From NCBI GenBank assembly GCA_035631035.1, contig DASQJL010000032.1, positions 1 through 61,324 on the forward strand: a DNA stretch of 61,324 bases, in the 5' to 3' direction. Within the stretch, counting starts at the first letter, position 1. Each line of letters opens with the position of its first letter. The position numbers were made by a program, and so were the translations under genes. The DNA comes from Candidatus Binatia bacterium. Lineage in GTDB: Bacteria > Eisenbacteria > RBG-16-71-46 > SZUA-252. Under the pieces are notes generated by a model. That model did no database searches. It was not told the origin of the DNA and was given only the letters and a program-made list of their open reading frames with translations. This document shows, piece by piece, positions 1 to 61,224 of this stretch.

Positions 1-1140
1 GGCTCCGAATGTCTGCTCGGCTGCATGCTGATTGTGCGCGCGGCACCGGAGGCGCAAGCCATCCACGTGGGACATGCCGCCGCGAGCGAACGGCTCGATA
101 TGGTCGAACTCGAGGAAGCGGCGGGACGCGCACCGATACCCGTCCGCGCTCACGAACGTGCACCTGCCCCCGTCGCGCTCCCACACCGCGCGCCGGACCT
201 GGGTCGGAATGTGGCGCGTCCCCGCGTGGCGCGTCCGCCTGGGACGAACGAGGACCGTCCGGACTTCGCCTGCGGCGTCCGACGTAGTCCGGCCGGCACC
301 CAGCTTCCGCTTCTCGAGCCGCGCAATCAGCGCGTCGAGCGCGCGATCGAGCACCTGCGCCACGTCGCCGGACGGAACCGCATGGCTGAGCAGGGCTTGA
401 GCATGACGAAGCTTGTCGTGGGTGCTGCGGTCGATGGTGACCCGCACGAGGTAGCGTTCGGCATCAACATGCCCTGGGGCATGTTCGCTGCGGTCATGAT
501 CCTGATCAATATGCCCTGGGGCATGTTCACCGCGGTCATGATCCCGATCAACATGCCCTGGGGCATGTTCGCCGCGGTCATGATCCACATCAACATGCCG
601 CGGGGCATGCACACCCAGTCCCAAGTCGACATGCCCTGGGGCATGTCCATCGAACAGACTCGCATCCGCGAATCCCGGCCGACCGATCCCGGTGCCCACG
701 GGCCGGATGACTGCGGCGGCTACAGGCGGCCGAAACGCCGGGAACCGGCGCGCCAGGTAGGATTCGATCTCCGACTTGCGTCGATGCGTCGCGGCCTCGA
801 TCAGCTCGTCCGCGTTCTCCGGCGTGATGTGCGGTGCCAGGAGCCACACCGCGGAGAGATGCATCCTGCCTTCCGCGAGCGCGTCGAAGAGCGCCGGAAC
901 CCGGCGGGCGGCCCGGGCCGCATGAATGCGCTTCGAGGCCGAGTCTTCAGAGAACCGAAGACGATCGACGCAGTAGGCAAACATGGACGCGCAGCCCTCG
1001 GGGACATACGCGCGCCGGAAATCGACCTCGGCAATGTACGCCAGGAGCATCGCCGTCAGTTCTCGGTCTCGAGTCGCCTGTACCGTCAATCCACGAAGAA
1101 GGGCCGCGTCATTGAGGTGGGTCAACGTGTAGTTGCGCAT
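1..1140 (-). CDS. HNH endonuclease-like protein (DUF222/13E12-like), 3' end cut by window edge
   Basis: The minus-strand frame is open from an ATG at 1140 to base 1 (380 codons) with no stop, so the C-terminus lies outside the window. The ATG is preceded by a GAGGAGA ribosome site. Residues 1-150 are an Ala/Arg-rich helical region starting MRNYTLTHL, like the N-terminal part of DUF222/13E12 HNH proteins. Residues about 165-225 are a His/Asp-rich repeat (HAPGHVD, then DHDRGE) encoded by tandem palindromic DNA. Residues about 320-373 are an HNH nuclease domain: CTFVSADGYRC, then FDHIEPFARGG and CRAHNQH, giving the expected D-H ... H-N pattern. I infer a DNA-nicking or cutting enzyme, possibly tied to a mobile repeat. 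It stands alone and points away from rpmB. The family call is good; the biological role is unknown. Confidence 0.82.
   Translation of the reverse strand, partial: MRNYTLTHLNDAALLRGLTVQATRDRELTAMLLAYIAEVDFRRAYVPEGCASMFAYCVDRLRFSEDSASKRIHAARAARRVPALFDALAEGRMHLSAVWLLAPHITPENADELIEAATHRRKSEIESYLARRFPAFRPPVAAAVIRPVGTGIGRPGFADASLFDGHAPGHVDLGLGVHAPRHVDVDHDRGEHAPGHVDRDHDRGEHAPGHIDQDHDRSEHAPGHVDAERYLVRVTIDRSTHDKLRHAQALLSHAVPSGDVAQVLDRALDALIARLEKRKLGAGRTTSDAAGEVRTVLVRPRRTRHAGTRHIPTQVRRAVWERDGGRCTFVSADGYRCASRRFLEFDHIEPFARGGMSHVDGLRLRCRAHNQHAAEQTFGA
466..647. repeat. Five tandem palindromic units inside the HNH gene
   Basis: Copies lie at 466-485, 508-527, 550-569, 592-611 and 628-647. The core is AACATGCCCTGGGGCATGTT: two 9-base arms around a 2-base centre. 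Start-to-start spacing is 42, 42, 42 and 36 bp, all multiples of three, so the reading frame is kept. The fourth copy has a changed centre and right end. The fifth has G...C instead of A...T at the outermost pair, a compensatory change that keeps the pairing. The same palindrome occurs at 58526 and 58678. Confidence 0.93.
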
Positions 1141-57170: not shown

Positions 57171-58508
57171 ATGGCACCGCCCGATTCCGATTCCGAAGTC
57201 GCCGAGAGACTTTCGGTCGAAGACCTCCGGGAAGTCTGGAATCTCCTGGTCCCCGAGGACCGGATCGAGAGCTTCCGCGCATTGCCCCGACCGGAGGCCG
57301 AGGACCTCTTCCTCGAGCTCTCCGCCCGCGACCAGACCGAGCTGGTCCTGGCCCTGCCCGCGCCGGAGCGCCGCTCGTGGGTGCGGCTCCTCCCGCCCGA
57401 CGACGCGGCCGACCTGATCCAGGAGGCCGGGTCGGAGCACCGCGAGGCGCTCCTCCAGCTCCTCGACGAACCCACGCGCAAGGACGTGCACGCCCTGCTC
57501 GCCTACGCCGAGGACGACGCCGGCGGGCTGATGAACCCGCGCTACGCACGCGTGCGCCCCGAGATGAGCGCGGACGAGGCCCTCACCTATCTGCGCCGGC
57601 AAGCCAGCGAGCAGACCGTGTCGCTGCCCTACGCCTATGTGCTCGGACCGGATCAGAAACTGATGGGCGTCGTCTCCTACCGCGAGCTCTTCCTCGCGCG
57701 CCCCGAGCAGCAGGTGCAGGACGTCATGCGAACCGAGCTGGTCACGGCTCCCGAGTCGATGGACCAGGAGGAGCTGAGCCGGCTCTTCTCCGAGAGCCGC
57801 CTCATCTCCATCCCCGTCGTCGACGCCGAGGGCCACATGAAGGGGATCGTCACCCTCGACGACATCGTGGACGTGGTGCGCGAGGAGGCCACGGAGGACA
57901 TCCAGAAAATCGGCGGTACCGCGGCCTTCGACGAGCCCTACCTGCGCCTCAGCGTGAAGGAGATGATCATCAAGCGGGCGGGTTGGCTCTCGGTCCTCTT
58001 CCTGGGCGAGAGCATGACGGCCGCCACGATGGGCTACTTCGAGCAAGAGATCGCGCGTGCCGTGGTGCTCGCGCTGTTCGTTCCGCTCGTGATCTCGAGC
58101 GGCGGCAACTCCGGAGGGCAGGCCACGACCCTGGTGATCCGCGCCATGTCGCTCGGCGAGGTGCGGCTGCGCGACTGGTGGCACGTGATGCGGCGCGAGA
58201 TCCTTTCGGGGCTTGGGCTCGGCACCATTCTCGCCGTGATCGGAATCGTTCGCATCATGGTATGGCAGGCGATCTTCCACTCGTATGGCGAGCACCATAT
58301 GCTCATCGCGCTGACGGTTGCCGTGAGCCTGGTCGGCGTGGTGATGTGGGGAACTCTGGTGGGCTCGATGCTCCCCTTCATCCTCCGGCGCCTGGGCCTC
58401 GACCCCGCGACCGCATCGGCACCGTTCGTCGCGACCCTCGTCGACGTGACCGGGCTGATCATCTACTTCTCGGCGGCGCGGGTGTTCCTGGGGGGCGTGC
58501 TTCTCTAA
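57171..58508 (+). CDS. mgtE: Magnesium transporter MgtE
   Basis: 445 residues. MgtE is a Mg2+-gated channel. The cytosolic N domain (about 15-125) has the superhelical repeats ending DAADLIQEAG, then the linker motif DDAGGLMNPRYARV, the paired CBS domains (about 130-250, with LDDIVDVVREEATEDIQKIGG) and five membrane helices. The pore-lining signature VISSGGNSGGQATTLVIRAM is intact. ATG at 57171 with GGAGGCGA upstream. Monocistronic; the palindromic repeat 18 bp past its stop may end the transcript. Confidence 0.97.
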   Translation: MAPPDSDSEVAERLSVEDLREVWNLLVPEDRIESFRALPRPEAEDLFLELSARDQTELVLALPAPERRSWVRLLPPDDAADLIQEAGSEHREALLQLLDEPTRKDVHALLAYAEDDAGGLMNPRYARVRPEMSADEALTYLRRQASEQTVSLPYAYVLGPDQKLMGVVSYRELFLARPEQQVQDVMRTELVTAPESMDQEELSRLFSESRLISIPVVDAEGHMKGIVTLDDIVDVVREEATEDIQKIGGTAAFDEPYLRLSVKEMIIKRAGWLSVLFLGESMTAATMGYFEQEIARAVVLALFVPLVISSGGNSGGQATTLVIRAMSLGEVRLRDWWHVMRREILSGLGLGTILAVIGIVRIMVWQAIFHSYGEHHMLIALTVAVSLVGVVMWGTLVGSMLPFILRRLGLDPATASAPFVATLVDVTGLIIYFSAARVFLGGVLL

Positions 58509-58525
58509 GCCGGACCACGATGCGC

Positions 58526-58545
58526 AACATGCCCTGGGGCATGTT
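58526..58545. repeat. Free-standing palindromic repeat, copy A
   Basis: AACATGCCCTGGGGCATGTT, identical to the first and third units in the HNH gene, lies 18 bp after the mgtE stop. On RNA it would form a 9-bp stem with almost no loop; it could be an end-of-transcript structure or a mobile repeat. Confidence 0.92.
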
Positions 58546-58677
58546 CACTCGGCTGGGAAGCGCTGACCGTCCACGGAAGCGTCAAGGTCCGTTACCCGCG
58601 CTGGCGCGCGTGAAATGGACGTCACTCGTCATCAAGCGAAGACACCATCTCAGCGCGCGTTGATCCCGGCGAGAACG

Positions 58678-58697
58678 GACATGCCCCGGGGCATGTT
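58678..58697. repeat. Free-standing palindromic repeat, copy B
   Basis: GACATGCCCCGGGGCATGTT, with a perfectly symmetric 18-base core, is 132 bp after copy A and 90 bp before the end of the convergent lipA. A short A/T-rich tract (GTATATATTAAC) follows. The space between the copies encodes nothing I recognise. Confidence 0.92.
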
Positions 58698-58787: not shown

Positions 58788-59840
58788 CTACGGAACGAAG
58801 ACGGTTTCTCCCGCCTGTTCCTCGGCGTGGAAGCTGGAACGAACGAGGGGACCGGACGCGACCTGGCGGATGCCGAGGGACAGGCCGTACTCGCGGTAGT
58901 GGCGGAATTCGTCGGGGTGGACGTAACGCTCCAGCGGCAGGTGCGATCCTGACGGCGGGAGGTACTGCCCCACGGTGACCATCGAGACGCCGTGGTCATG
59001 CAGGTCGCGCAGCAATTCGTCGACTTCTTCCTGCGTCTCCCCCACGCCGACCATCACCCCCGACTTCGCGGGGATGCCCGGGGTCCAGGTCGCCACGTTC
59101 TTCAACAGCTGCAGCGAGCGCTCGTAGCGGCCCGCGGGGCGCACCCGCTTGTACAGCCGCTTCACCGTTTCCATGTTGTGATTCAGGACGTCCGGCCTGG
59201 CGTCGAGCACGGTGCGCAGCGCGTCCTCGTCGCCGAGGAAGTCGGGAATCAGCACCTCGACACGCGCCCCGGGAATCGCTCCGTGAATCGCGCGGATCGT
59301 CTCGGCGAAGTGCGCGGCACCGCCGTCCGGCAGCTCGTCGCGATTCACCGACGTGACCACGATGTAATGGAGCCCGAGCCGCCGCGAGGCGTCGGCGACG
59401 CGCGCGGGCTCTTCGGGGTCCACGGGAAGCGGCTTCCCATTTCGAATATCGCAGAAGGGGCAGGAGCGCGTGCAGACGTTGCCCAGGATCAGGAACGTCG
59501 CGGTGTGCCGCGAGAAGCAGTCGCCGATGTTCGGGCAGTTCGCGCTCTCGCACACGGTGTGCAGATCGAGCGTCCGGAGGATCGACTTGGTTTCGAGATA
59601 GTTCCGGCCCGTCGGAATGCGCGCGCGGAGCCAGTCCGGCCGGCGCACGGGGAGCGGCTCGCCGCTCTGGCGCTCGTACGGGCGCAGTGGCTTCCGCTTC
59701 TCGCCGGCCTGGACGCGCCGGTCGGAGGGGAGCGTCAGCGAGATGGCCGTGCCGGAGATCGGATGGCGCGGCACGTCCGAAGCGATCGGCCCCGGGACGC
59801 TCGCAGCGCCACTCCCTTCCTCGCGACGGATCTCAGACAT
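58788..59840 (-). CDS. lipA: Lipoyl synthase LipA
   Basis: 350 residues. A radical-SAM enzyme that inserts two sulfurs into protein-bound octanoate. The auxiliary cluster motif CESANCPNIGDC and the radical-SAM motif CTRSCPFC are both intact; RNYLETK, TSVNRDELPDGG and NHNMETVKRLYK and the final SSFHAEEQ also fit. I chose the ATG at 59840, which overlaps the lpdA stop by 8 bp; an ATG at 59864 would overlap by 32 bp. The product would serve 2-oxoacid dehydrogenases using the adjacent LpdA. Confidence 0.96.
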   Translation of the reverse strand: MSEIRREEGSGAASVPGPIASDVPRHPISGTAISLTLPSDRRVQAGEKRKPLRPYERQSGEPLPVRRPDWLRARIPTGRNYLETKSILRTLDLHTVCESANCPNIGDCFSRHTATFLILGNVCTRSCPFCDIRNGKPLPVDPEEPARVADASRRLGLHYIVVTSVNRDELPDGGAAHFAETIRAIHGAIPGARVEVLIPDFLGDEDALRTVLDARPDVLNHNMETVKRLYKRVRPAGRYERSLQLLKNVATWTPGIPAKSGVMVGVGETQEEVDELLRDLHDHGVSMVTVGQYLPPSGSHLPLERYVHPDEFRHYREYGLSLGIRQVASGPLVRSSFHAEEQAGETVFVP

Positions 59841-61224
59841 GGATCGCCCGTCCCTCGGTTCCAAACATCGCCTCCATCGTCGCCTCGGACAGCGTCGGGT
59901 GCGCGTGCACGACGTTGGCCAGCTCTTCCGCGGTCGCCTCGAAGTGCCGCGCGACGACCGATTCCGCGATCTGCTCGGTGGCCTGGACGCCGATGATGTG
60001 GACGCCCAGGATCTCGCCGGTCGCGGCGTCCGCGACGGCTTTCACGAAGCCGTCCCCTTCCCCGAGGATACTGGCCTTCGAGCTGGCGGTGAACGGGAAC
60101 TTCCCCACGCGCACCTGCCGTCCCGCCGCGCGCGCCTGCGCCTCGGTCATCCCGACGCTCGCGACCTGCGGGTGGCAGTAGGTGCAGCTTGGGATGGCGT
60201 GGTGGTTCACGCGATGGGGTCTTTTTCCCGCGATCGCCTCGACGGCGGTGATCCCCTCGTGCGAGGCCACGTGCGCGAGCGCGGCGCTCTTCGTGACGTC
60301 TCCGATCGCGTACACGCCGCCCACGTTCGTCCGCTGCAGGCAGTCCACGTTCACGTAGCCGCCGTCCATGGCGACGCCGATCGCCTCGAGTCCGATCCCC
60401 TCCGTCGCGGGCCGCCGGCCCGCCGCCATCAGGACGCGCTCCACGCGGAACCGGCGCGCCGCGTCGTGCGCCCGGACCTCGACCCACGCGCCGTTGCCCT
60501 CGACGCGCACGGGATTCAGCTCCGCGCCCACGAACACCTCCATGCCCTGGCGCCGGAAGGAGCGAAGCAGGGCTTCGGAGATCTCCGCGTCCTCCAGCGG
60601 CATCAGCCGCGATTCCCGCTCCACCAGGGTCACCTTGGTTCCGAACGTATGGTAGATCGAAGCGAACTCGACGCCGACCGCGCCGGCGCCGATCACCAGC
60701 ATCGACTCGGGCACGCGGTCGAGCCCGAGCACGTCGTCGCTCGAGAGCACCACCCGGTGATCCAACGGCGCGATCGGCAGCGATCCGACGACGGAGCCGG
60801 TCGCGACGATCACGGCGCCGGCCTCGATCTCCCCGGCGCCGTCGCCCTCGATCCGGACCCGGTCCGCCGCGACCAGGGTCCCCGCGCCCTTGATCGTTTC
60901 GACCCGGTTCTTCCGCAGCAGGGCCTCGGTGCCCATGAAGTTCTTCCGGACCACCCGCTCCTTCCGCTCCTGCGCGGCCTTGAGGTCCAGCGTCGCCTCA
61001 GCCACGCGCACGCCGAATTCCCCGGCGCGCCGGCAGAGGAGCAGCACCTCCGCAGTCTCGATCAGGGCCTTGGTCGGGATGCAACCCCAGTGCAGGCAGG
61101 TGCCACCCGGCCGGTCCCTCTCGATCAGCGCCGTCTTCAGCCCGAGCTGCCCCGCGCGGATGGCGGCCACGTAGCCCCCCGGCCCGGCGCCGAGAATGGC
61201 GACGTCGTACCGGGATCGACTCAC
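59833..61224 (-). CDS. lpdA: Dihydrolipoyl dehydrogenase
   Basis: 463 residues. The E3 component reoxidises dihydrolipoamide with FAD and NAD+. FAD site DVAILGAGPGGYVAAIRAG, redox disulfide GGTCLHWGCIPTKAL (Cys43/Cys48), NAD site VIGAGAVGVEFASIYHTFG, FAD site 2 VYAIGDVT and the catalytic NVVHAHPTLSEA at the interface are intact. The GTG at 61224 overlaps the upstream stop as GTGA. Its pairing with lipA places it in lipoate-dependent metabolism. Confidence 0.96.
   Translation of the reverse strand: MSRSRYDVAILGAGPGGYVAAIRAGQLGLKTALIERDRPGGTCLHWGCIPTKALIETAEVLLLCRRAGEFGVRVAEATLDLKAAQERKERVVRKNFMGTEALLRKNRVETIKGAGTLVAADRVRIEGDGAGEIEAGAVIVATGSVVGSLPIAPLDHRVVLSSDDVLGLDRVPESMLVIGAGAVGVEFASIYHTFGTKVTLVERESRLMPLEDAEISEALLRSFRRQGMEVFVGAELNPVRVEGNGAWVEVRAHDAARRFRVERVLMAAGRRPATEGIGLEAIGVAMDGGYVNVDCLQRTNVGGVYAIGDVTKSAALAHVASHEGITAVEAIAGKRPHRVNHHAIPSCTYCHPQVASVGMTEAQARAAGRQVRVGKFPFTASSKASILGEGDGFVKAVADAATGEILGVHIIGVQATEQIAESVVARHFEATAEELANVVHAHPTLSEATMEAMFGTEGRAIHV

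Follow-up and report, generated by a model that had tools for sequence, protein, structure and literature searches.

A dispersed palindrome linked to an HNH-family gene that carries it in its own coding sequence in Candidatus Eisenbacteria

Why a putative nuclease gene should hold, within its own reading frame, a short palindrome that recurs as free copies far away in the chromosome is the question raised by this locus. The window, meaning the whole stretch of 61,324 nucleotides analysed here, is the whole of contig C32, so that the HNH-family gene at its left end, read on the minus strand from an ATG at 1138-1140, continues beyond the contig start. Among named records, the nearest are MAGs of Candidatus Eisenbacteria, uncultured bacteria of soil and groundwater. 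A first-pass annotation had described five in-frame copies of the palindrome in this gene, with a 42-bp and then a 36-bp period, and two extra copies between mgtE and lipA; positions and spacing proved to be exactly as claimed. Indeed, the pattern AACATGCCC-NN-GGGCATGTT, searched with up to 3 mismatches, has 7 matches in the window (at 466, 508, 550, 592, 628, 58526 and 58678) against 0.02 expected by shuffling, and the five in-gene copies are spaced by 42, 42, 42 and 36 bp. The free pair is flanked by what we take, from the translations and without a family search, to be mgtE (end at 58508) and lipA (58788-59864, minus strand). The features are as follows.

1 to 1140, minus strand: HNH-family gene with 380 codons present and the C-terminal tail missing, recognised from the open reading frame, its paralogs and weak Pfam HNH and DUF222 matches.
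739 to 1134, minus strand: N-terminal helical domain, DUF222-like by profile match, without palindromes in every gene examined.
460 to 738, minus strand: variable linker holding the palindromes; the structure predicted for a paralog shows it as disordered.
466 to 485, no strand: palindrome copy 1, perfect, AACATGCCCTGGGGCATGTT.
508 to 527, no strand: palindrome copy 2, 1 mismatch.
550 to 569, no strand: palindrome copy 3, perfect.
592 to 611, no strand: palindrome copy 4, degenerate, 3 mismatches.
628 to 647, no strand: palindrome copy 5, perfect; its outermost pair has changed in a compensatory way from A..T to G..C, as first annotated.
289 to 459, minus strand: middle domain (THDKLRxAQALLSH), without palindromes.
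10 to 204, minus strand: predicted HNH nuclease domain (zinc-type Cys/His plus D-H...N), from residues invariant in the reference paralog and a weak HNH Pfam match.
58526 to 58545, no strand: free copy, perfect, downstream of mgtE, found by pattern match.
58592 to 58613, no strand: third palindrome, of another type, TTACCCGCGC-TG-GCGCGCGTGA, with 2 mismatches, between the two free copies.
58678 to 58697, no strand: free copy GACATGCCCCGGGGCATGTT, followed by the AT-rich tract GTATATATTAA.

Palindrome types in the source genome

The source genome (G000; 3.35 Mb in 135 contigs, with counts that rest on pattern scans and fetched stretches) contains about eight HNH paralogs, the window gene among them. 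Every paralog with a readable linker (n = 7) has a palindrome of about 20 bp there, in the stretch that joins the N-terminal and THDKLR domains, and six types are found in total. In particular, the window gene carries five copies of AACATGCCC-CA-GGGCATGTT, the C2 paralog two copies of AACATGCTT-TG-AAGCATGTT, the C7 paralog two copies of AACTTGCGC-TG-GAGCAAGTT with one mismatched pair, and the C81 paralog three linker copies of AACTCGCCC-CG-GGGCGAGTT plus one in its tail, while single copies are present in the near-identical fragments on C84 and C68 (TTACGTTCCCCGGGGAACGTAA) and in the C76 paralog (ACCGCCGCTAGCGGCGGT). Since contig ends often truncate HNH genes (window 1-1140; C7, C84, C68 and C78), copies are probably undercounted.

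All six linker types are also found free in the same genome, those of C76 and C7 as close variants. The 18-bp core, allowing up to 2 mismatches, is found at 21 places and its reversed control at 1, and a generic palindrome pattern gives 73 places against 15 for its own reversed control, so the palindrome is far above chance frequency in the genome as in the window. Some free copies are intergenic and some lie inside unrelated genes; one of the latter falls in the C-terminal end of a HAD-like gene (C96). The preferred distance between neighbours is 36 bp, and in 40 of 67 neighbouring pairs the two palindromes are of unlike types. Moreover, an AT-rich tract like TTAATATATATTAA adjoins 14 of the 43 perfect free copies, compared with 0.6% of random positions; this tract was not seen beside free copies in two other palindrome-bearing genomes, G005 and G039. 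Examples of it are found at C36:15152, C2:32185 and C12:41047.

Two further arrangements were observed in the source genome. Arrays of unlike palindromes with superperiods of 263 bp and 223 bp occur at C57:2910-3520 (L043) and C105:210-690 (L044), on small contigs or at contig ends, and 47-bp tandem units (TTCACCGC..GCGGTGAA plus GCGACAACTGTC), which match the type that the C76 HNH gene carries, are present at C24:13642-13731 (L048) and C11:23279 (L056).

Constraint on the palindrome and its association with the HNH family

Across relatives, 41 of 118 genomes have the HNH family. Of the 54 genes analysed first, 33 have a perfect linker palindrome, with 49 copies where dinucleotide shuffling gives 0.53, and none was found in the DNA of the flanking folded domains (20.7 kb from the N-terminal domain and 9.0 kb from the middle one). 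In a wider set of 62 complete genes with all three domains, 42 carry a perfect linker palindrome (58 copies) and 20 lack one. The expected presence of the repeats in family members is thus borne out in 42 genes, and the versions differ between paralogs, which goes further than the first annotation proposed. All 58 linker copies are read in the identical frame, although all frames are open, which points to old vertical inheritance at the linker site rather than to fresh insertion. The edges and the centre of the palindrome are conserved, and the centre is always a YR step (CG 35, CA 15, TG 5 and TA 3 among the 58). The encoded peptides together with the codon usage of the family would yield 0.07 perfect palindromes against the 58 seen; therefore, the constraint on the linker palindrome acts on the nucleic acid and not on the peptide. 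On the HNH protein tree, close paralogs have different palindromes and the same palindromes reappear on distant branches, so that recognition of a specific sequence by the protein core is not apparent.

The symmetry itself is kept while the sequence changes. Indeed, AACNNGCCCYRGGGCNNGTT, a pattern with two free positions on each side, has 74 matches in 17 of the 118 genomes and 0 control matches, and the unconstrained NN pairs, of nine different kinds, are complementary in 72 of the 74, in line with the earlier proposal that pairing is maintained. These matches occur in 17 of the 41 genomes with the HNH family and in 0 of the 77 without it (Fisher 1e-9), and within the class in 17 of 33 against 0 of 14 (4e-4); this co-occurrence is partly built in, because many of the counted copies lie inside HNH genes. 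The free copies are the independent part of the association, and they too are absent from genomes lacking the family. Equal abundance in relatives without the gene, which would have spoken against the first annotation, is thus not what was found.

Palindromes reach tens of copies per genome in two relatives besides the source genome. G005 holds 20 copies of ACTTGCCC in a type-specific scan, against 0-2 elsewhere, and 15 of the ACYTGCTS types, which its own HNH genes carry and of which the other 46 genomes have 1; in G039, a type-specific scan gives 22. Free copies generally match the palindromes of HNH genes in the same genome: in the fetched stretches, 14 of 19 free types do so against 3.1 by permutation, a figure inflated because the stretches were partly chosen with HNH-derived palindrome patterns. 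Copy number had been expected to correlate with the presence of the family. AACNNGCCCYRGGGCNNGTT is indeed confined to HNH genomes, but copy number does not simply follow the number of HNH genes, as family f8 has 10-26 HNH matches in many genomes, many of its genomes combine 10-20 HNH genes with few free copies, and few or none are found in many of its HNH-bearing genomes. With a palindrome far above chance, found only alongside the HNH family and carried by most of its genes, the idea of a self-linked repeat system is supported.

The gene itself also looks mobile. In G023, several HNH copies (L124, L125, L126 and L127, the last one truncated), 88-93% identical, have in common a unit of about 1.5 kb with sharp borders, the left one being CGCTTGACGACTTTCG, and unrelated flanks. 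No terminal inverted repeats are visible in these units, and palindromes as their ends were considered and set aside, as none lies at the borders of the units inspected.

Alternative explanations

The palindromes could be passive mobile insertions, similar to the Rickettsia palindromic elements, which some other enzyme spreads and which HNH linkers merely tolerate. Copies do occur outside the linkers: one lies in the kdsB gene of G003, within an in-frame insertion of about 14 residues that is absent in eight relatives as well as in KdsB of known structure, another is the HAD-like gene end, and three HNH tail copies are read in a frame different from that of the linker copies; the disorder of the linker would also make it permissive. 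Against this stand the single frame of the linker copies, the different types carried by paralogs, the lack of palindromes in the 77 HNH-less genomes and the absence of RAYT, the usual enzyme, from the palindrome-rich family f1. We regard passive insertion as unlikely.

Somewhat less likely still is a control site, in which the HNH protein or an mRNA hairpin represses its own gene and the free copies act as operators or decoys. A symmetric 20-bp sequence with conserved edges and centre is typical of dimer binding, and its position inside its own gene would suit such a role. However, free copies often stand in clusters with palindromes of other types, about 36 bp apart, and some lie in genes, a placement that is not promoter-like. 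The RNA version is set aside on the mismatches of the imperfect copies: among these 18 copies, 8 A.C and 4 G.T mismatches are found, and the lack of an excess of G.U over A.C argues against an RNA hairpin.

A mutational origin, in which quasi-palindromes are corrected by template switching and perfection is kept without function, would explain compensatory changes without selection; we consider it improbable, as it leaves unexplained the restriction to HNH linkers and HNH-bearing genomes, the dispersal of identical copies, the conserved edges and the YR centre. Selection of HAPGHVD-type peptides as a linear motif, with the palindrome as a by-product, would account for the one reading frame of the linkers and the recurrent [QE]-[LH]-A-P-x-x-V peptides, but is highly implausible and contradicted by the 0.07 palindromes expected from the peptides, by the tail and kdsB copies, which encode NMPRGML in the other frame, and by the intergenic free copies.

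The HNH protein and a putative self-marking system

The residues C306, C316, D325, H326, C345, H348 and N349 (reference-paralog numbering) are invariant in 43 sequences, 41 of which match a phage HNH family; that the zinc and HNH positions are conserved speaks for an active nuclease. The AlphaFold2 model of the C2 paralog predicts a disordered linker (residues 141-207, mostly with pLDDT <50) between confident domains. After the HNH domain, tails contain a RuvA_C-like domain (e.g. L122, L135 and L095); in two members the match exceeds the curated cut-off, and in most it is weak. In its predicted fold, the tail is similar to RuvA domain III (some 50 residues at about 1.5 A), with Foldseek E-values >0.8, and the whole model has no Foldseek match below E 0.001; the likeness hints at a link to four-way junctions and is no proof of one. 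We know of no earlier combination of an HNH domain with a RuvA_C-like tail.

Several known classes were considered for this protein and its palindromes. A phage origin was rejected, as no relatives were found among viral contigs, and so was a known defence system, to which PADLOC gives only marginal matches. IscB and Cas9d share a weakly matching HNH domain, but the scores are far under the curated cut-off (NCBIfam 21.9 bits against 175 for IscB) and the match is confined to that domain, so that an RNA-guided nuclease was also set aside. The REP13E12 or DUF222-HNH genes of mycobacteria are likewise multi-copy DUF222-like HNH genes and behave as repeats (PMC10589994), whereas DUF222 similarity is only marginal here (20 bits for the window gene against PF02720, below the cut-off of 24.4).

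The closest parallel is given by REP/RAYT systems (REPtrons, REPINs), in which short dispersed palindromes of several types per genome are tied to a nuclease family and copies are either solitary or grouped at intervals, with some located within genes (PMC3733652, PMC3116915, PMC2817692). All these traits are shared. However, the enzyme is HNH here and HUH/Y1 there, and the palindromes here form part of the enzyme's own coding sequence (in the linker and sometimes the tail) instead of standing beside the gene. No Y1/HUH transposase (PF01797) was found in the 9 genomes of family f1, including G000 and G005 with the most free copies, and membership of REP-RAYT was rejected on this absence and on the position of the palindromes; one or two such transposases are present in most f8 genomes and also in the HNH-less G036. 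Among the copies inspected by eye, neither a GTAG nor a CGTC tag was seen beside the palindromes. RPE are palindromes that have entered protein genes without shifting the frame (PMC3733652), as has the one in kdsB of G003, but they occur in Rickettsia, no dedicated enzyme is described for them and the related repeats are CGTC-tagged, whereas here a 20-bp core is found in Ca. Eisenbacteria and is carried by most members of a nuclease family. PARCEL elements (PMC2996958) are likewise dispersed, mobile coding repeats that occur in tandem and have dyad symmetry; they form a 25-residue amphipathic repeat of membrane proteins rather than a nuclease linker, and their abstract mentions no matching free palindromes that belong to an enzyme.

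Taken together, we favour, with moderate confidence, a dispersed REP-like palindrome system tied to an HNH nuclease family that carries its own putative substrate in the gene. The data establish the linkage, the kept symmetry, the constraint on the nucleic acid, the dispersal and, as evidence of mobility, one insertion in a conserved gene (kdsB of G003). A typical HNH gene holds one to five copies of its own palindrome of about 20 bp in the disordered linker. The HNH protein may recognise the palindrome as a two-fold symmetric site or as an extruded cruciform and nick it, and repair after the nick could copy it to new places, in the way that RAYT spreads REP. Gene and substrate would remain together whenever the gene is copied, since one contains the other, and binding of the protein to its own gene may limit expression, as a form of self-regulation. 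A more specific version is conceivable, and we put it forward tentatively: a selfish element whose HNH domain and RuvA-domain-III-like tail would read the shape of a four-way junction and not its sequence, carry the substrate in its own coding sequence and spread freely diversifying palindromes, with each paralog founding its own REP-like family. Recognition of shape would fit the free drift of the sequence, the GC-rich core and the RuvA-like tail.

Searches of open-access papers found no described family in which a nuclease gene carries its own dispersed palindrome, as the first annotation had stated, and the data suggest an undescribed self-marking mobile DNA system. To our knowledge, RAYT is the only well-worked enzyme link for REP-type dispersed palindromes of bacteria, and if another, unrelated class of enzyme had palindromes of its own, this would mean that the strategy arose independently. 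If this reading is true, enzyme and substrate are physically one gene and their co-evolution could be read directly from the paralogs; if recognition is by cruciform shape, the nuclease would let the sequence of its palindrome turn over while the symmetry is conserved.
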